Source: Turicibacter faecis
Lineage (GTDB): Bacteria; Bacillota_I; Bacilli_A; MOL361; Turicibacteraceae
Reading direction: 5' to 3'
Length of the DNA: 64,000 nt
Assembly: GCF_037076425.1 (NCBI RefSeq)
Contig: NZ_AP028127.1
Coordinates: forward strand, 1,394,001-1,458,000
Under the pieces are notes generated by a model, which was given only the letters and a program-made list of their open reading frames with translations, was not told the DNA's origin and ran no database searches. Positions 17,023 to 61,598 of the stretch are shown one piece after another; position 1 is the first letter of the stretch; the number at the start of each line of letters is the position of its first letter. The translations under genes and the position numbers were made by a program.

Positions 17023-18309
17023 ATGTCTCACTCATATTTTACTAGAAAACTTTTAAATATTAAAGATAAAAATATTACATTTTCAGAAGATTATCTTGAG
17101 GAAGTGAAGTTGAACGGAATTACTAGCTTTATCTTTAAAGGTATTCTTACGTATCAACCGACTCATTGTCAAAAATGCGGAACCCTATTTGATTCAAAAT
17201 TTAAGAAGCATGGATTTAAAACCTCTCGAATTGTCATTCCAAAAGTCTCTCTTCACGATACCTACTTAGACCTAAAAAAACAGCGTTATTATTGTGGGCA
17301 TTGCCAGTCTACTTTTACACTAAGTACTTCAATTGTTGAAAAGAACTGTTACATTTCTTATCATACGAAACACGCCATTGCTTTAGAGGCCTAAAATAAA
17401 ATTTCTGAATGTGATATCGCACGTCGCCATCAGGTCTCTCATTCAACCGTCAATCGAATCATCCATAGCTTTTATGAATCTCAAACCTTAAACCTTAATT
17501 ATTTACCTGAAAATCTCTGTTTTGATGAATTTAAATCCGTTAAGTCTGCTGAGGGGCATATGTCTTTTATTTTTTGCGATGCTGACTCAAAACAAATCAT
17601 CGATATCGTTGAAGATCGTCGTTTAAACTCCCTTCAAGCTTATTTTAAACGATACACAAAGGAAGCACGTCATCGAGTAAAAAATATTGTGATTGATATG
17701 TACGCTCCTTACATCAGCCTCATTAAGGATCTTTTTCCTCATGCCCAAATTATCATTGATAAATTTCATCTCGTTCAACATCTCTCTCGTGCACTGAACA
17801 AAACTCGAATCCGATTCATGAAAAAGTTCAAAAAGCATGGTCGTAAATTCAAACGTTATTGGCGCTTATTTTTAAAATCTCACGCTTTACTTAATACCAC
17901 CACTTATCGATCAGTTTACTGCTTTAAACAACCCATGCGTGAAATTGATATCTTAAACTTTCTACTTGATTTATCTCCTGAATTAAAAGCAACCTATGAT
18001 TTATATCAAGAGTTACTTTTCGCTCTTCAGACAAAAAACTTAAAACGATTTAATCATTTACTCGAAACGGAACATCCGCTTGTTTCTCCTGAGTTTCAAA
18101 CGGCTTTCCAAACCTTTAAAACTTATCAATCCTATATTAAAAATACACTCTCAACTCATTACACAAATGGTCCCATCGAAGGAATTAATAATAAAATTAA
18201 GGTCATTAAGCGTATTGCCTTTGGATATCGTAGTTTCTATCACTTTAAATCTCGTATTCTCATGGTTCAAAATCTAACAAAGCCTAAAACGAAAATCCTA
18301 GCAGCATAG
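17023..18309 (+). pseudogene. ISL3-family transposase split by an in-frame TAA
   Basis: The two parts, 17023-17394 (123 residues) and 17395-18309, are in the same frame and join into one ISL3 transposase of about 428 residues. The first part has the zinc-ribbon (CQKC...CGHC). The second has an HTH (CDIARRHQVSHSTVNRI), the DDE elements FDEFKSV, DMYAPY and IIDKFHLVQH, and the terminal NGPIEGINNKIK with its Glu. The TAA at 17392-17394 follows HAIALEA and precedes NKISE. Family members usually read Gln there, so one C-to-T change explains it. Unless read through, the enzyme is inactive. Confidence 0.9.
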
Positions 18310-54012: not shown

Positions 54013-55061
54013 ATTGTCAATACAAATGCGACAGTTTCTCATGAAATAGCTCGAATGAAGTTTTCCAACCTAAGCATTTTCGTGGTCGATGATTAATGAG
54101 GAGGAGGGCTTCATCAATCTCTTTCTCACTAACTCGTGCTAAGTCCGTCTTCTTCGGAAAGAATTCTCGAAGAAGACCATTGGCATTTTCATTACTTCCT
54201 CTTTGCCAAGAGGAATAGGCGTCAGCGAAGTAAACAGGAACCTTTAAATCTGCTTCTACTTTGGAATAACAAGCAAACTCTTTTCCTCGATCAACGGTAT
54301 AAGTTTTAAAGGTGTCTTTAGGAAAATGTTCATATAACTCACTAATCGCTCGGTACATTTCAGATGCTGAGCGATTTTCGATTTTAACGGCGACATAAAA
54401 TCGTGTTTGACGTTCAATAAATGTAGCTAAACATCCTTTACTTTTACCACGGCTTGAAACAACTGTATCAAGTTCCCAATGACCAAATGCCTGACGTTTT
54501 TTTACCTCTTTCGGACGTTGATGAATTGATGTCCCAATGTTAAATCGTCCGCGTGTTTCTCGTGGTTTTCGGCGTTTTCCCTTTTGCCTTAAACAGCTTA
54601 AATCCCCTAACAAAATCGTTCCGTCATAAATCCAACGATAAATAGTTTTGAATGAAATAACACCCTTTAAAACCGTATTAGAAATTTGTTCAGGCGACCA
54701 GGTTAACTTTAAATAATGTTGGATGGTTTGAATAACTTCTTCAGATTTGGTCTCTGGACGATGACAAACTAAGCGACGTTGCTCGGCTAATTCATCTGCT
54801 AGCTCTGCTTGATACGTCTTTTGAGTATTTCGTTTTAGTTCACGAGCAATGGTTGAATGATGACGATTTAATTGCCCCGCAATTTGTCTCGTTGAATAAC
54901 CCATTTTTGAAAGAACTTCTATACGTGTACGCTCAAATGTGTTAAGATGTTTATAACTCATAAATAGATCTCCTTGTTAAGAATTTGGTGTGGTAACTTC
55001 ATTCTATAACAAAGAATTCTATTTATGAGCTTTTTTTATTTGTCGCACTTAATATTACAAT
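54013..55061 (-). mobile_element. IS30-family insertion sequence (about 1049 bp)
   Basis: Imperfect 21-bp inverted ends (54013-54033 and 55041-55061) share ATTGT and TGCGACA. The family usually gives 2-3 bp duplications, too short to confirm here. One intact transposase is inside; its stop codon lies within the inner part of the right-side (54013) repeat. Confidence 0.8.
54017..54961 (-). CDS. IS30-family transposase
   Basis: A 314-residue intact DDE transposase. It has the N-terminal HTH (LNTFERTRIEVLSKMGYSTRQIAGQLNRHHSTIARELKRN), the catalytic D in WELDTVVSSRGK, D in TYTVDRGKEFA and E in RGSNENANGLLREFFPK. Start ATG at 54961. The element lies between convergent genes and interrupts nothing visible. 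Confidence 0.95.
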   Translation of the reverse strand: MSYKHLNTFERTRIEVLSKMGYSTRQIAGQLNRHHSTIARELKRNTQKTYQAELADELAEQRRLVCHRPETKSEEVIQTIQHYLKLTWSPEQISNTVLKGVISFKTIYRWIYDGTILLGDLSCLRQKGKRRKPRETRGRFNIGTSIHQRPKEVKKRQAFGHWELDTVVSSRGKSKGCLATFIERQTRFYVAVKIENRSASEMYRAISELYEHFPKDTFKTYTVDRGKEFACYSKVEADLKVPVYFADAYSSWQRGSNENANGLLREFFPKKTDLARVSEKEIDEALLLINHRPRKCLGWKTSFELFHEKLSHLY

Positions 55062-55105: not shown

Positions 55106-56347
55106 TTATTCATGACGTAATGCATCAATTGGATTAAGGTTTGCTGCCTTCATTGATGGAAGCAATCCAAAAATTAGCCCGATTGCAATCGAAAATACAA
55201 CTGATCCGACAGTAGCCGGAAGACTAATCGCTACCGGTGTTTGTGAAACAACGGAAATGACTTTGGCGAGTATAATTCCCGCTAAAATTCCCAAGATCCC
55301 ACCTAAGCTCGTTAATACGGCCGCTTCCGTCAAAAATTGGGCTAAAATTACTCGTTTTCTTGCCCCAATAGCTTTCTTCAAACCAATCTCATTTGTACGC
55401 TCAGTCACAGAAACGAGCATAATATTCATAACCCCAATGCCTCCGACGAGGAGTGAAATACTCGCAATCCACAACAATTGCTGATTCGTTGCAGCACTTA
55501 ATTCTTGTAATTGCTTCGCCTGTTCAAGAATGTCAATGGCCTGATAACTTAATGTACTATCCCAAAGCTCAGCATTTAAAATATTCGCACAATCACGTCC
55601 TACTGTTCCCATATAATCGGTATGACTCGCCTTAACCGCGACATGTTGGGGTTCATCGTATGCATACACAACCGGCCAAACAACATCTGGAAGAAAAATG
55701 TTACCACCTTGGTTTTGATGGTAGGTATAGTAATCATCAATCGAGTGAATAACAGGTTTGGATTGATTAGCCAATTCAACAACCCCAATAATAATAAACG
55801 GTTCCCCTCTTATCTCCAACGTCTGTCCAATTGGACTTTCACTTTGAAAAAGACTTGAAGCAACATCCTGATCGATAATCATATTTTTTCTAAACTCCTG
55901 GTAATCCGAATCAATAAAGAGGCGTCCCTGACGGATCACATAGCCCATGACGTTAAAATAATCCTCATCTATTCCTTTCACGCTCGGCCCTTCTAATAAG
56001 GTGCTCTTATAATAGATTCCATCTGCATAACTTCTACTCCGATACAAAGAGGCACCTTCTACATGCTCTATCGCCTTGATCTCTTCCAACGTAGCGGGAG
56101 ATACTTCTTTCGTCCCATACGGAATCTGGTCTCCCTCGACTTCATATCCATCTTGACTCAACTTAACCTGTACGACATTATTCCCTGACCCAATCAAATT
56201 CTGTTTAATTTGCTCATTTGTCCCTTTAATCGTAGAAACAATGGCAATAATCGACGCAATCCCAATAATAATACCTAACATGGTTAAGAAGGAGCGCATT
56301 TTATGTGACCAAATACCTTTTAGTGATAGCCCAATATTTTCGATCAT
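55106..56347 (-). CDS. MacB-like ABC transporter permease (FtsX fold)
   Basis: A 413-residue protein with N-terminal helix (MRSFLTMLGIIIGIASIIAIVSTI), a large extracytoplasmic domain (about 45-285), and three C-terminal helices with the FtsX family signature TERTNEIGLKKAIGARKRVILAQFLTEAAVLTSLGG. It transmits ATP-driven motion to an adaptor and expels peptides or drugs. Last gene of the four-gene operon, 2 bp after the second adaptor gene. Confidence 0.95.
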   Translation of the reverse strand: MIENIGLSLKGIWSHKMRSFLTMLGIIIGIASIIAIVSTIKGTNEQIKQNLIGSGNNVVQVKLSQDGYEVEGDQIPYGTKEVSPATLEEIKAIEHVEGASLYRSRSYADGIYYKSTLLEGPSVKGIDEDYFNVMGYVIRQGRLFIDSDYQEFRKNMIIDQDVASSLFQSESPIGQTLEIRGEPFIIIGVVELANQSKPVIHSIDDYYTYHQNQGGNIFLPDVVWPVVYAYDEPQHVAVKASHTDYMGTVGRDCANILNAELWDSTLSYQAIDILEQAKQLQELSAATNQQLLWIASISLLVGGIGVMNIMLVSVTERTNEIGLKKAIGARKRVILAQFLTEAAVLTSLGGILGILAGIILAKVISVVSQTPVAISLPATVGSVVFSIAIGLIFGLLPSMKAANLNPIDALRHE

Positions 56348-56349
56348 AG

Positions 56350-57933
56350 TTATTCCTCTCCTTCTAGCATCACCTTAGCTTTTAACCCGTCCTTAATATT
56401 TTTAGTATACGGGAAGGCTAAATGATCTTCCTCGTTTACTCCCGAAAGAATTTCGATATACGAACCGTAAATAACCTTTCCTGTCTGAACACGTTCTTTG
56501 ACTAAACGTTTATTCTGATCCACCTTATAAACAAATTTTTGGCCGTGATCCTCGCCGACATAGGCCATGTCGATGTAAAGAGTTTGTCCTTCCTCCTGCG
56601 GCGATTTTAGTGTGACTGACACATTCATATTTGGGCTTAATTGTTGATCTCCTTCAATGGTCGCAACAAATGGATAACGTGACACTTTCGGACCCCAATC
56701 TTGATTATCTTCAACAGGGTAGGGATAAATCTCTGTAATTCGTGCTTCATAGCTCATCCCCGTTTCATAAGACTGGATATCTACTACTTGACCGACATCT
56801 ACCTTAGCCAATTGATATTCATTGAGCGTTCCCTTTAAGTAAAAGCCTTCATCACTTGTGACCACAAGAAGCGGGGTCCCATCGTCTATTTTAGACGGAA
56901 GGTCCTCTACCTTTTTTACAACACCGTTGACGCTACTTCGAACGGTCAATTGTTCGATTTCTTTTTTAATTTGTTGCTCCTTTAAGAGCGCTTCTTTATA
57001 ATCCAACTCCAACCCTCTAACAGCTGACCGTTTCTCTTGAATCAATTGTTGAAGCTCCTCTTTTGAATAAGTATCCTCACCTTCTGTCCCATCTTGAACA
57101 GGTTCTTCGTCATCGGGTTGAGCAGCAGGAGGCTCCACCGAAATTGGCGGTTCCTCTTGACCTGGAACCTTCTCACCATCTGGCTCTAGGATTTCATCCT
57201 TTATCAGGGATAAGTAGTCTCCCACGCTCATCGAAACAACCCCCTCTGGAATTTTCAACCCTTCTCCATCAATGAAAAACGATTCTTTGTTTCCATCGTC
57301 TGAAAGAACGATTAAAATTAATTTCATTGGGGCAAAAACGGTGGTTTTTCCTACCTCATCTAATCCCTTTAAACGATATAAAAATGAAACATGTAACCGG
57401 TCTTTTTGATGAGCTTCTACTTGATACGTTCCATCCTCTAATGGGAAAAATTCGGAGTTATAATTTAACCCTTCTTTCGCATCCGTTCCCTCTTCCTGAG
57501 ACGCTGTAACTGCCTTCGCCTGGTTGCTTCCTGTCGCAAAAGAACTCATCGATTGTAAGTTTTTCAACTCTTTTTTTGCCAATTGAATTTGAACATCTAA
57601 CCCTTTAACTTTAGATTGTTGAACCTGTAATTCTAATTCTTTCAAACTTTGGTCATAAACAATTAAGGGGTCACCTACTTGTACCCGATCTCCCTCAGCA
57701 ACTAAAACCTCTTTAACTGTTTTAAAATTCTCAAGCATGACCTCTTGGGTCATATTCGAGGCAATATACCCTGAAGATTCTTCTAAATCCCCCCACCATG
57801 AGGTACTTAAGTGGGCGACGGGAATCGTTTCAATTTCATTTGAACGCATAAATGTTAGATAGCAACCTATCCCTCCTATTAAAAGGATAAAAAGCATACC
57901 ACCGAACATAAGTAATTTCTTCTTTTTCACCAT
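56350..57933 (-). CDS. MacA/HlyD-like membrane-fusion adaptor with long acidic insertion
   Basis: A 527-residue adaptor with N-terminal anchor (LLMFGGMLFILLIGGIGCYLTF), lipoyl-type half (VLVAEGDRVQVGDPLIVYD), helices, second lipoyl half (SVNGVVKKVEDLPSKIDDGTPLL) and a C-terminal barrel. Between the two helices an insertion of about 170 residues includes a Pro/Glu/Asp linker (EEPPISVEPPAAQPDDEEP), not usual for MacA. Start ATG at 57933 (MVKKKK) by RBS spacing; it overlaps the ATPase gene end. Confidence 0.9.
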   Translation of the reverse strand: MVKKKKLLMFGGMLFILLIGGIGCYLTFMRSNEIETIPVAHLSTSWWGDLEESSGYIASNMTQEVMLENFKTVKEVLVAEGDRVQVGDPLIVYDQSLKELELQVQQSKVKGLDVQIQLAKKELKNLQSMSSFATGSNQAKAVTASQEEGTDAKEGLNYNSEFFPLEDGTYQVEAHQKDRLHVSFLYRLKGLDEVGKTTVFAPMKLILIVLSDDGNKESFFIDGEGLKIPEGVVSMSVGDYLSLIKDEILEPDGEKVPGQEEPPISVEPPAAQPDDEEPVQDGTEGEDTYSKEELQQLIQEKRSAVRGLELDYKEALLKEQQIKKEIEQLTVRSSVNGVVKKVEDLPSKIDDGTPLLVVTSDEGFYLKGTLNEYQLAKVDVGQVVDIQSYETGMSYEARITEIYPYPVEDNQDWGPKVSRYPFVATIEGDQQLSPNMNVSVTLKSPQEEGQTLYIDMAYVGEDHGQKFVYKVDQNKRLVKERVQTGKVIYGSYIEILSGVNEEDHLAFPYTKNIKDGLKAKVMLEGEE

Positions 57934-58619
57934 TCCCATCTCCCTTTAACAGCCGAATGAATGAGCTCACCGTCTAAAATTGCAATCTGTCGATTCGCTG
58001 CCTGCGCTACCTTTGCGTCGTGAGTAATCATAACAATAGTAACGCCTTCATCATTTAATTGTCTAAATAAGTCCATAATTTGTACCCCTGATTTACTATC
58101 TAACGCTCCTGTTGGTTCATCTGCTAACAAAAGAGATGGATGATTTACAATTGCTCGTGCAATCGCAACGCGTTGCTTCTGCCCACCTGATAATTGCGTA
58201 GGCTTAAAATGAAGCCGATCACCGAGTCCAACCCTTTCAAGTGCCTGTATCGCGCGCCGACGGCGTTCACTTTTAGGAATTTTGGCATACGTCAAGGGTA
58301 ACTCAACATTTTCAAGCGCACTTTGCGAAGATAAAAGTTGAAAATTTTGAAAAACAAATCCGATTTCATTTAATCGCAAGTCCGAAAGTTCGTCCTCAGA
58401 TAAAGATAGAACATCTTTTCCATTCAAAAAGTAGTCACCCGATGTTGGCAAATCAAGACATCCTAAAATATTCATCAGTGTCGATTTTCCTGAACCCGAA
58501 GGTCCCATAACGGCGACATAATCACCCATTTCAACTGAAAAATTTATATTTTTTAACACTTCTACTTTTAATTTATCCTGAAAATAATTTTTTTGTATAT
58601 TTTTCGCCTCTAATAGCAT
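57927..58619 (-). CDS. MacB/LolD-type ABC transporter ATPase
   Basis: A 230-residue ATPase with Walker A GPSGSGKSTLMN (39-50), Q-loop FQNFQLL, signature LSGGQKQRVAIARAI, Walker B LLLADEPTGALD and the H-loop in MITHD. It drives the permease at 55106. It starts 10 bp after the first adaptor gene and overlaps the second. Confidence 0.97.
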   Translation of the reverse strand: MLLEAKNIQKNYFQDKLKVEVLKNINFSVEMGDYVAVMGPSGSGKSTLMNILGCLDLPTSGDYFLNGKDVLSLSEDELSDLRLNEIGFVFQNFQLLSSQSALENVELPLTYAKIPKSERRRRAIQALERVGLGDRLHFKPTQLSGGQKQRVAIARAIVNHPSLLLADEPTGALDSKSGVQIMDLFRQLNDEGVTIVMITHDAKVAQAANRQIAILDGELIHSAVKGRWEW

Positions 58620-58629
58620 TTTTTACCCC

Positions 58630-59808
58630 CTATTCCTCAACCTCGGTTAATGAGCCATTTTGCATTTTCTCGCATGCAATCCCTTCTTTAACTTGCTCGT
58701 CGGGAAAGGCAATATAATCATCCCCTGTTAATCCATCTAAAATTTCATATCGTTGTTGTTGCTCATCATAAGCTCCTAATTGCACTTCGCGTTTTTCTAA
58801 TTTATGATCATTTTCTACGTATACGTAGCTTTTATCATCTTCATTCATCAAATAGTAGTCATAAAGCCATATCCCCTCGGATGACTGATCCTGCCCCTCA
58901 TCTAATTCCACGTAGACGTGTTGGCCTAAAATTAAATTTTCTGTCGATTCTAATTCAACATAAAAAGGATAATTGGTTGCCACCTCTGAATTTCCGCCCA
59001 TATTTAAATCATTCGGGGTGAGCATATTATTTAAATCAATCATGGTTATTTTTCCTTTCCATGTTTGTTCCTTATTTACCCGTGATCGAACGATGACAGG
59101 CTGTTCTACCTGTAATTGTGAAACACTTTGCTCACTAACTGTTCCCTTAATGCGATAGTTGGTCATCGATAACAAGGTCATGTAGCTTTCGCCATTTCCC
59201 TCTGAAGCAGTGGCATCGCCCCCAATTGATTTAACAACACCTGTAACTGTACTTTTAACCACCGAATTTTCAACAGATGATTTTAATTGTTCGACTTCAA
59301 CCTGTTTACTTTTCCTATCATACTCCGCCTGCTTTAGTTCATTCTGTGTCGTTAAAATTTGTGCTTTATGTTCAAGGCTTAATTCGTTTGCTCCTACTGA
59401 GGCATTATTGAGTAAACCTACCTGCTCATTTAAATCTGTTATAGATGCACTTAGCCGTTCTAACTCTAATTCAGCATGACTTAACTGTAGCTCGAGTTCC
59501 CCCGTCTCATAAGAAAATAGTGGTGTCCCCTCTTCAACTAAATCGCCAACCTTTACGTAAACGTCTTTAATGACACGGTCCATATTTCGTTTTACCTCTG
59601 TTGTCTCTTGTGGTTCAACAATCCCGCTGTATCTTTGAAAAAGTCCAGATCCACTCCCTAATTGATGAATAGATGAGACGGATTCAACATACACGATCCC
59701 CTCTTCATTATTTTTTAGAGACTTTCTTGCAAAAAAAGTACATGGAATTAAAATACCTAACACGCAAAGTACACAAAGCAAGACTATCTTTTTCTTATTC
59801 TTCCTCAT
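58630..59808 (-). CDS. Second MacA/HlyD-like membrane-fusion adaptor
   Basis: A 392-residue protein with anchor IVLLCVLCVLGILIPCTFFA, lipoyl half (VKVGDLVEEGTPLFSYETGEL), a hairpin of about 70 residues, the return strand VKSTVTGVVKSIGGD and a C-terminal barrel. First gene of the exporter operon. Its insert is shorter than that of the other adaptor, so the two are not simple copies; they may assemble together as a hetero-adaptor. Confidence 0.9.
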   Translation of the reverse strand: MRKNKKKIVLLCVLCVLGILIPCTFFARKSLKNNEEGIVYVESVSSIHQLGSGSGLFQRYSGIVEPQETTEVKRNMDRVIKDVYVKVGDLVEEGTPLFSYETGELELQLSHAELELERLSASITDLNEQVGLLNNASVGANELSLEHKAQILTTQNELKQAEYDRKSKQVEVEQLKSSVENSVVKSTVTGVVKSIGGDATASEGNGESYMTLLSMTNYRIKGTVSEQSVSQLQVEQPVIVRSRVNKEQTWKGKITMIDLNNMLTPNDLNMGGNSEVATNYPFYVELESTENLILGQHVYVELDEGQDQSSEGIWLYDYYLMNEDDKSYVYVENDHKLEKREVQLGAYDEQQQRYEILDGLTGDDYIAFPDEQVKEGIACEKMQNGSLTEVEE

Positions 59809-59980
59809 TTTTACAATACCTCCTATTTTTTTCTAAATTATATCACTATTTGAGTTTAAGAGGCAACCTAAATTCATCATTATTCCCTTTAATTGAAAGA
59901 CGATGACCTAGTCTTCACTCACCATGGCCGTAATTTCATCATATGATATAGTAAATTCCCCTAAAATGGAGGCGGTCTTA

Positions 59981-60859
59981 GTGAAGATTAAATCATTACG
60001 CGTTAGTACCCCCAATGGCTTGTGCGTCAACGTCACGACCCCCGTTCCCCTGACGCTACTCGTCGGTCTATCTGGTTCAGGAAAAAGTCAAATTTTGTTT
60101 TACATTTATAGCCTGTTTCAGCTCTTAGCAGGACACTCCATAAAAGGTCTAGCAAACGGAGAATACGAAATGTGTTTTATCCTCAATCAAAAAGAGTACC
60201 GTTACCTCGTCTACATCAATGATAATTACCCCATCATTCAACACTTATGGAACTCTGCCGACTCCTCATCCCCAACATTTGAAGAATTAATTCCCCTTTT
60301 AATGCCTGTAAAATGGTTAACCTCTATTCCGCAATTTCGTCAAACCAACACCATCACCAAATCGTATCTCCTTGCAACGAAACAGCAAACTTCTGAAATT
60401 CTCTCTATTTTTCAAAGTATTTTCGACTCCGTTGAAGACATAAAGTTACTCCATCGCCCGAAAAATACTCTCGAACTCTTCTTTAAAGAAAAAGGAGGTA
60501 GCTACCTTGAAATCCACAAGATGTCTGATGGAATGCTTAAAACATTATATTATTTAACAGAATTTGTGTTAAGCGAACCGGGTACCCTCCTACTGGTCGA
60601 TGAATTTGAAAACGGACTTGGATTAAACTGTATGGGTCCATTACTCGAAGAGATGATGGGACGTGATGACCTTCAGCTCATTTTAAGTAGTCACCACCCT
60701 TACGTCATTAATAATGTCCACAGTCACTTTTGGCGTATTATCACACGCCAACAAGACACGATTGAGGCGCATACCGCTGAAGAGCTTGGAATCGGGCAAA
60801 CAGAATATGACAGTTTTTTTGAACTCATTAATGTCCTTTCGTTTGAAGGAGGCGTCTAA
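59981..60859 (+). CDS. ABC-type AAA ATPase (AAA_21/AAA_15-like) of a two-gene module
   Basis: A 292-residue soluble ATPase with Walker A GLSGSGKS (29-36), signature-like KMSDGMLKT, Walker B LLLVDEFENG and H-loop SSHHPYVINN. No DNA-binding or membrane part is evident. It belongs to the SMC/OLD-type ABC ATPase group often paired with a nuclease. The GTG at 59981 is chosen because GGAGG lies 8 nt upstream; the ATG at 59924 has no RBS. One base separates its stop from the partner gene. Confidence 0.82.
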   Translation: MKIKSLRVSTPNGLCVNVTTPVPLTLLVGLSGSGKSQILFYIYSLFQLLAGHSIKGLANGEYEMCFILNQKEYRYLVYINDNYPIIQHLWNSADSSSPTFEELIPLLMPVKWLTSIPQFRQTNTITKSYLLATKQQTSEILSIFQSIFDSVEDIKLLHRPKNTLELFFKEKGGSYLEIHKMSDGMLKTLYYLTEFVLSEPGTLLLVDEFENGLGLNCMGPLLEEMMGRDDLQLILSSHHPYVINNVHSHFWRIITRQQDTIEAHTAEELGIGQTEYDSFFELINVLSFEGGV

Positions 60860-60860
60860 C

Positions 60861-61598
60861 ATGAAACTCTATATTCTTGTCGAAGACGGAAAATCAGGAC
60901 ATAAAATCATTGATCACTGGATACCCCTACTACTGCCGACCCTAACACGTGCAAAATCTATTGCAGAAATTCAAAATAATCAATACGTTCTCTATAGTGG
61001 AATGGGTTATCCTCGTCTCCTTGGAACCGATCGTTCCTCTCCCGAAAAAAACATTCTAGGGCAAACGATTGATACTATCAATCTCTATCAAACTATCGAC
61101 TACCTTTTAATATTTCTAGATGGGGACGATGATGGCGTCAGTCTTCGTCATCAAATCGTTCAACAAAAAATTGAAAGTTATCACCGCCCTCTCAGTTGCC
61201 CTTATGTAATCTTTGTCCAAAATAAATGTCTTGAAACTTGGTTACTCGGTAATCGGGACCTTTTCCCCACAACCCCTCTTCCTAACTTTCTCCCCTTTCT
61301 AGCCCACTACAATGTTAGCATCGATGATCCTGAACAAATGGAAAAGGACCCAAATTTCGCCTTCGCCTCTACGTCAGCTCTCTATCATGAACGCTATTTA
61401 AGAGCAATGATGCAAAACTTAGGTTACCGCTATAGTAAATCACGCCCCTGTCCTATCATGTATACAGAAAGTTTTATTAACGGTCTTAAAAAACGCATAG
61501 CTGAAACGCAACACCTTCAAAGCTTAAATATTTTTTTCATTTTTATGGATCAATTAAAGGAAAACCCACCTCATGCACCTACTCTCCCCCCACCTTAA
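60861..61598 (+). CDS. TOPRIM-like partner (DUF4276/RloB-like) of the ATPase
   Basis: A 245-residue protein with an N-terminal acid in KLYILVEDG (E8), then a D-x-D-D-D cluster in FLDGDDDGV (87-91), the order of TOPRIM catalytic acids. The CLETWLLGN block (about 125-133) is like the Cys/Glu-x-Trp-Leu part of DUF4276/RloB proteins, nucleases or toxins paired with ABC ATPases (for example in PARIS- and RloAB-like systems). ATG at 60861 with GAAGGAGG; longer frame upstream overlaps the ATPase. Function inferred. Confidence 0.72.
   Translation: MKLYILVEDGKSGHKIIDHWIPLLLPTLTRAKSIAEIQNNQYVLYSGMGYPRLLGTDRSSPEKNILGQTIDTINLYQTIDYLLIFLDGDDDGVSLRHQIVQQKIESYHRPLSCPYVIFVQNKCLETWLLGNRDLFPTTPLPNFLPFLAHYNVSIDDPEQMEKDPNFAFASTSALYHERYLRAMMQNLGYRYSKSRPCPIMYTESFINGLKKRIAETQHLQSLNIFFIFMDQLKENPPHAPTLPPP

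Follow-up and report, generated by a model that had tools for sequence, protein, structure and literature searches.

Phage defences that pair an ATPase with a nuclease form a large class, most of it untested, in which the part of the ATPase that senses the phage is an open question. In the PARIS system the ATPase AriA holds the TOPRIM RNase AriB until a phage trigger releases it, and AriB cuts tRNA (PMC12409363). Previous work linked RloB to the TOPRIM domains of the OLD type as well as to AbiLii, and described an RloB-like toxin that its AAA partner neutralises (PMC10440598). The prophage-carried WonAB system aborts infection by way of WonB, a nuclease effector of a different fold which shuts down translation (PMC12137116). 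In this work we analyzed a two-gene locus of Turicibacter faecis contained in a stretch of 64,000 nucleotides, hereafter the window, from a genome of 2.43 Mb in a single contig. The two genes, A and B, probably constitute an autonomous anti-phage module in which an ATPase sensor would restrain a TOPRIM-like nuclease effector and whose outcome would be abortive infection.

Genes A and B are separated by a single base, and the coordinates and lengths given for them in an earlier note on this DNA were found to be correct (Table 1), as were all of the motifs listed there (Walker A, LLVDEFENG and SSHHP in A; E8, DGDDD and CLETWLLGN in B). The arrangement exceeds chance, as the two genes recur jointly in four further genomes at amino-acid identities of 42-79% and with the identical 1-nt junction; in three of these (G001-G003) gene A also has a GTG start and an upstream purine-rich site. 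All five junctions of the Turicibacteraceae share a purine-rich site for gene B, 8 nt before the ATG and still within gene A, near its end. A 1-nt junction combined with an internal ribosome-binding site in every copy means that A and B are very probably co-translated, and the placement of the gene B Shine-Dalgarno sequence within gene A very probably couples their translation. A scan for promoters and terminators at the pair returned no terminator, and promoter-like sites were no more frequent than expected by chance.

Table 1. Features of the gene pair and of the divergent efflux cassette beside it (positions in the window).
Feature	Position	Strand	Remarks
MacB-like cassette permease	55106-56347	-	first of four genes
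MacB-like cassette adaptor	56350-57939	-	
MacB-like cassette ATPase	57927-58619	-	
MacB-like cassette second adaptor	58630-59808	-	
Shine-Dalgarno TGGAGG of gene A	59967-59972	+	8 nt upstream of GTG; read from sequence
Gene A, ABC-type (OLD/Rad50/PtuA-like) ATPase	59981-60859	+	GTG start, 292 aa; AAA_21, AF2, Foldseek, orthologues
Walker A GLSGSGKS, A residues 29-36	60065-60088	+	GxxGxGK[ST] in 13/13 family ATPases
ABC signature region SDGM, A residues 182-185	60524-60535	+	S182, G184 invariant
Walker B and D-loop LLVDEFENG, A residues 204-212	60590-60616	+	D207, E208, E210, N211 invariant, 13/13
H-loop SSHHP, A residues 236-240	60686-60700	+	S237, H238, H239, P240 invariant, 13/13
Shine-Dalgarno GAAGGAGG of gene B	60845-60852	+	within last codons of gene A; 8 nt upstream of ATG
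Gene B, RloB-like, probable TOPRIM-type nuclease	60861-61598	+	ATG start, 245 aa; hhalign, invariant acids, AF2
E8 codon, first acidic motif (hxE of TOPRIM-like domain)	60882-60884	+	invariant 16/16
DGDDD, B residues 87-91, DxD/E motif	61119-61133	+	D87 invariant; position 89 always D/E
CLETWLLGN, B residues 123-131, equivalent of RloB PCFEhW	61227-61253	+	C123, E125, N131 invariant

The assignment of A to the ABC-type ATPases, as proposed in the earlier note, was borne out, and the OLD/Rad50 kind was indicated, by its match to AAA_21 (50.5 bits, cut-off 27) and by a Foldseek search, in which the AF2 model of A (pLDDT 86.6) matched Rad50, PtuA and retron ATPases at E values of about 1e-11. The best PADLOC model for A was AbiLi (E 2.1e-15), the A-type model of the PADLOC candidate HEC-01 was matched at 7e-14, and alignment to RloA-type ATPases by hhalign reached 94.6% over the Walker B/H-loop region. 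Walker A, the signature Ser and Gly, Walker B with its catalytic Glu, the D-loop and the H-loop His are common to all 13 A proteins of the family; as these motifs are kept throughout, A should hydrolyse ATP. The product of gene A had been described as much smaller than AriA or OLD, and this holds even inside its own family, where the Turicibacteraceae proteins measure 281-304 aa and every other member 361-400 aa. The short forms are reduced by about 80 residues, and the segment that is gone corresponds to the variable region between an early beta-hairpin and the helices preceding the signature motif. Within the family, long ATPases (361-400 aa) and naturally shortened ones (281-304 aa) thus stand beside the same partner, so that comparing them could show the role of the variable region.

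Gene B was more difficult to place. On its own B passes no Pfam/NCBIfam model and no PADLOC B-type model: RloB (PF13707) gave no match at E<=1, DUF4276 (PF14103) reached 13.2 bits, under its curated cut-off of 30.2, the HEC-01 B-type model gave 0.042, and HNH families were absent among its Pfam/NCBIfam matches. Several of its relatives do match these models, namely RloB in nine out of 13 (weakly, best 2.4e-5), AbiLii in eight out of 13 (best 1.3e-7) and DUF4276 in nine out of 13 (best 4.8e-7), with HEC-01 B-type values down to 3.6e-5. DUF4435 was matched at E<=1 neither by B nor by any of the 13 relatives, and hhalign of the B family against two DUF4435 proteins gave 0.2%. Across the 16 sequences of the B family the residues E8, D87, Q120, C123, E125, N131, Y191, K193 and R212 never change, position 89 holds either D or E, and the acidic triad hxE ... 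DxD of TOPRIM domains is present in every sequence. When the family was compared by hhalign with a set of four RloB proteins, which adjoin RloA-type ATPases in related genomes, the profiles matched at 96.3% with a score of 66.6; the VEG..E, DxD and PCFEhW motifs were aligned, CLETWLLGN falling on the RloB sequences SPCFEIWF and NPCFEVWM. Among 30 column-shuffled controls the highest score was 18.5 (below 1%). The Turicibacteraceae rows alone reached only 44% against RloB but 100% against the remaining B family, so that the link to RloB runs through intermediates. By these profiles the B family is distinct and related to RloB distantly but significantly. Of the two likenesses proposed for B in the earlier note, that to RloB thus stands, while that to DUF4276 falls below the cut-off for B itself.

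The AF2 model of B (pLDDT 85.3, pTM 0.84) has an alternating alpha/beta arrangement in which E8 lies just past strand 1 and D87 closes the strand 81-87, the places expected in TOPRIM domains. The best Foldseek match in the PDB was topoisomerase I (E 0.02, TM-score 0.24), with nothing significant; the viral structures of BFVD gave no significant match, and a sequence search of solved structures with B returned nothing meaningful. The TOPRIM fold anticipated in the earlier note is thus neither confirmed nor excluded by the predicted structure, and because Foldseek gave no significant match, the assignment is drawn entirely from sequence profiles and motifs. On these grounds B is probably an RloB-like, TOPRIM-type nuclease. 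It should be noted that the missing TOPRIM match of the model, together with the failure of B alone to pass any RloB, DUF4276 or PADLOC B-type model, counts against the defence reading.

The distribution of the family was addressed by searching plasmid and phage records with B. The tblastn search identified eight distant relatives (24-34% identity); the ATPase gene directly precedes B in seven plasmid records, and a related ATPase end precedes it in a short phage-labelled contig. Among the relatives A and B were always found jointly, and the distances of A are correlated with those of B (Mantel r 0.76, P 0.0006, for the eight non-Turicibacter pairs). Carriers include small plasmids of Acinetobacter and Proteus (small-plasmid carriers span 10-15 kb) and plasmids of Nostoc and Bernardetia; in the Planktothrix plasmid p1 the pair adjoins a GmrSD-type gene and a XamI restriction-modification pair, and Methylovorus pMsip02 carries it together with Zot and an integrase, which is the plan of a filamentous phage. 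The 10 kb plasmid of Proteus terrae holds two copies of the pair (L028 1082-2949 and 6688-8554) with identical B proteins, the ATPase of one copy being annotated as two pieces. A small mobilizable plasmid of Acinetobacter pittii has the pair (L030 3001-4853) alongside the carbapenemase gene blaOXA-72 and YoeB/YefM. The phage-labelled record, MT839527.1, is an unannotated sequence of 4.2 kb with the ATPase end and a complete B (L024 3-1358); its label is doubtful, the remaining genes being similar to surface proteins of the Bacteroides type.

In IMG/VR the family was found in five P2-like prophage contigs (L032-L035 and L042) and in one filamentous phage (L036) with adsorption and Zot genes; scans of viral contigs with two queries, A1 and the Acinetobacter protein, gave no matches. 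In the P2-like phages the pair is flanked by the gpA-type replication gene on one side and by gpQ, the portal gene, on the other. The 1862 bp of the P2-phage pair are 100% identical in E. coli 23CRST009 (NZ_AP045766.1, positions 2964893-2966754), in the order replication endonuclease, pair and portal protein; this was the only one of 5,426 E. coli genomes to carry it, and a more sensitive search gave the same count. The gpA-gpQ interval is a hotspot of anti-phage systems which in P2 itself holds old and tin (Rousset et al., PMC9122126). Placement in this hotspot is the strongest single link of the family to defence. Taken with the filamentous phages, the small plasmids and the neighbouring GmrSD and XamI genes, it bears out the defence link that the earlier note had proposed from the sequence alone, and these contexts strongly support a defence role of the pair. 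They also put a label on the content of a P2-hotspot variant and on filamentous-phage cargo listed in databases as 'hypothetical protein'.

The same plasmids raise the question of an addiction module of a toxin, B, and an antitoxin, A, which would maintain the carrying element with no dedicated sensing of phage. Carriage on small Acinetobacter plasmids next to RelE/ParE or YoeB/YefM systems would fit this, as would the RloB-like toxin mentioned above, whose neutralisation by an AAA protein came from a toxin-antitoxin screen (PMC10440598). Carriage in the P2 hotspot and in filamentous phages argues otherwise; moreover, the ATPase catalytic residues are fully kept, for which a mere antitoxin has no obvious need, and addiction is not needed for vertical retention on a chromosome. 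We regard an addiction module as quite improbable, noting that this view and that of defence overlap, because abortive-infection modules behave as toxin-antitoxin pairs.

In the Turicibacteraceae, surveyed with one genome per species, the pair is present in four of the five Turicibacter species and in one of the two other genera of the family; it was not found in genomes G393 and G394. Identities among these copies are 51-79% for B and 42-78% for A. A TIM-barrel-type gene lies upstream of the pair in all five copies, and a 161-aa gene and a dicarboxylate-type symporter lie downstream in the four Turicibacter copies. The pair was probably acquired before the split of Turicibacter and the sister genus and then kept at one chromosomal place. 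In the fifth Turicibacter genome, G004, the flanks are intact and about 400 bp with no remnant of the pair lie between the neighbours. G004 has the efflux cassette in common with G000, the genome of the window, and with G001, and the TIM-barrel genes of G004 and the window show 93% identity, for which reasons loss of the pair in the G004 lineage is the simplest reading. As the 161-aa gene is retained in G004, where the pair is gone, it was rejected as a third component. In the pair orthologues synonymous change is near saturation and far above the low non-synonymous change; degradation of the pair was rejected, frames being intact and purifying selection evident in all orthologues. Within the genus the identities are 46-78% for A and 62-79% for B, compared with 84-95% for the TIM-barrel gene, 80-92% for the symporter and 56-73% for the 161-aa gene; the pair hence diverges faster than the first two and about as fast as the third. 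Judged from these patterns, the pair is kept by selection yet dispensable, as its clean absence from G004 indicates.

The surroundings of the pair vary. A MacB-like efflux cassette (55106-59808, minus strand) is divergent from the pair in the window and occupies the site in G000, G001 and G004, whereas in G002, G003 and G290 none lies between the TIM-barrel gene and the pair. An IS30-type transposase (54017-54961, minus strand) is situated between the TIM-barrel gene and the cassette, and in G393, of the sister genus g156, which lacks the pair, an AAA-ATPase_like/PD-(D/E)xK_9 gene (L048 10080-11768) overlaps the end of the TIM-barrel gene. The nuclease gene of G393 together with the cassette and the transposase of the window suggests that the interval behind the TIM-barrel gene is a small insertion site which takes up accessory genes. 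Elsewhere in the window a transposase-like frame is split in two (17023-18309, plus strand; ORFs 17023-17394 and 17560-18309) and is probably a decayed ISL3-type element. The pair had been described as sitting alone among accessory genes; this is true of the adjoining cassette, whereas the outer flanks consist of conserved chromosomal genes.

The vertical inheritance of the pair in Turicibacteraceae at one fixed position, where no further recognised defence gene adjoins it, is a point against the defence reading. It invites the alternative that a module which once belonged to defence or to a plasmid became fixed in the chromosome and now serves DNA repair, the cell cycle or RNA processing. Four Turicibacter species with the same flanks, a sister genus with the same upstream gene, the strong purifying selection on the pair and the shortened ATPase would all agree with such a domestication, for which Cran1, an OLD-family ATPase-nuclease that serves the cell in Sulfolobales, provides a precedent (PMC12796447). 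We nevertheless find it improbable: the pair is not essential, since it is cleanly missing in G004 and not found in G393 and G394, A evolves faster than most of its neighbours, and the relatives ride mobile elements. The earlier note had held that homologues consistently placed in housekeeping contexts would speak against defence; the picture is mixed, with a fixed chromosomal place in the Turicibacteraceae and a mobile, often defence-linked one elsewhere.

For an anti-phage module, the roles of sensor and restraint for A and of effector for B are taken from the analogy with AriA/AriB and with the AAA-neutralised RloB-like toxin. A, as an OLD/Rad50-type ABC ATPase, would be the sensor and keep in check B, the metal-dependent, RloB-like effector of TOPRIM type. 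Upon infection a phage product would alter the state of A and B would be freed or activated; B would then cut nucleic acid, likeliest host tRNA or another RNA as AriB of PARIS does, the translation of the infected cell would halt and the phage would not be propagated. The complex of A and B, the nuclease activity of B, its trigger and substrate and the abortive outcome are what we infer for the pair. By the example of WonAB, A may also be required for the activity of B, beyond restraining it. A variant within this same reading, sharing in its probability, is that B is a DNA nuclease which, like OLD or GajA, acts on phage DNA, given that the TOPRIM enzymes linked to OLD ATPases in OLD and Gabija cut DNA (PMC10568477). 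We think this rather unlikely: the nearest tested two-gene analogues, AriB and WonB, hit translation, even if neither would count as a close relative.

Tentatively, the cassette could represent a defence class of its own, as yet unnamed, which combines an ATPase with an RloB-like TOPRIM protein and is present in at least four phyla, and of which the Turicibacteraceae have the smallest form seen, vertically kept as a lineage-level immune gene. Such a class would have spread through plasmids, filamentous phages and P2-like prophages, and the Turicibacteraceae A would be a minimal sensor ATPase lacking the usual variable middle region. Literature searches on HEC-01, on DUF4276 with an ATPase and on phage defence in Turicibacter gave nothing usable, and an earlier in-silico listing of the family is possible. 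For Turicibacter, a common gut genus, the pair adds a candidate resident defence system.

Compared with known systems, WonAB of the Vibrio WASA-1 prophage is likewise a two-gene cassette of OLD-type ATPase and nuclease, but WonB is a PD-(D/E)xK enzyme and not RloB/TOPRIM-like, and C-terminal extensions of WonA bind WonB. With the PtuA/PtuB of Septu and retrons the likeness lies in the ATPase, the model of A matching PtuA and retron ATPases, whereas the partner is not an HNH nuclease and no reverse transcriptase is adjacent. Class 1 OLD and class 2 Gabija couple an OLD-type ABC ATPase to a TOPRIM-type activity as the pair would, and P2 old sits in the same phage slot as some relatives of the pair. 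However, OLD is one fused chain and the pair is two ORFs, a stop being followed by a new start, and the UvrD-like helicase GajB of Gabija has no counterpart at the pair, whose neighbours are efflux genes and the 161-aa protein. Membership in OLD, Gabija and Septu was rejected, as the fusion or the partner is missing. PARIS has its ATPase and TOPRIM-type effector on separate chains like the pair, and the AAA_21 match of A (50.5 bits) passes the published ATPase threshold of 27. PARIS was discovered in the cos-proximal hotspot of P4 satellites and its detection rule requires DUF4435 (PMC9122126); that hotspot corresponds to the one in P2 where relatives of the pair are found. The B of the pair is without DUF4435, however, and its ATPase has only 292 aa. 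The comparison with PARIS made in the earlier note therefore does not hold as a membership, which was rejected for want of DUF4435 in B and in the 13 relatives. The RloA/RloB and AbiLi/AbiLii systems are like the pair in having two adjacent genes, ATPase then effector, and RloB is like B in its three acidic motifs (VEG..E, DxD and PCFEhW), which align. B alone nevertheless lies under every model of RloB and AbiLii and its relatives reach them weakly (nine and eight out of 13, respectively), the B family has invariant residues of its own (W20, S46, G49, P51, Y191, K193 and R212), and the RloA-type proteins adjoining RloB have 413-424 aa, the Turicibacter ATPase being much shorter. Most likely the pair is a suicide module directed against phages; its general kind is known, but its branch is unnamed in the family libraries.
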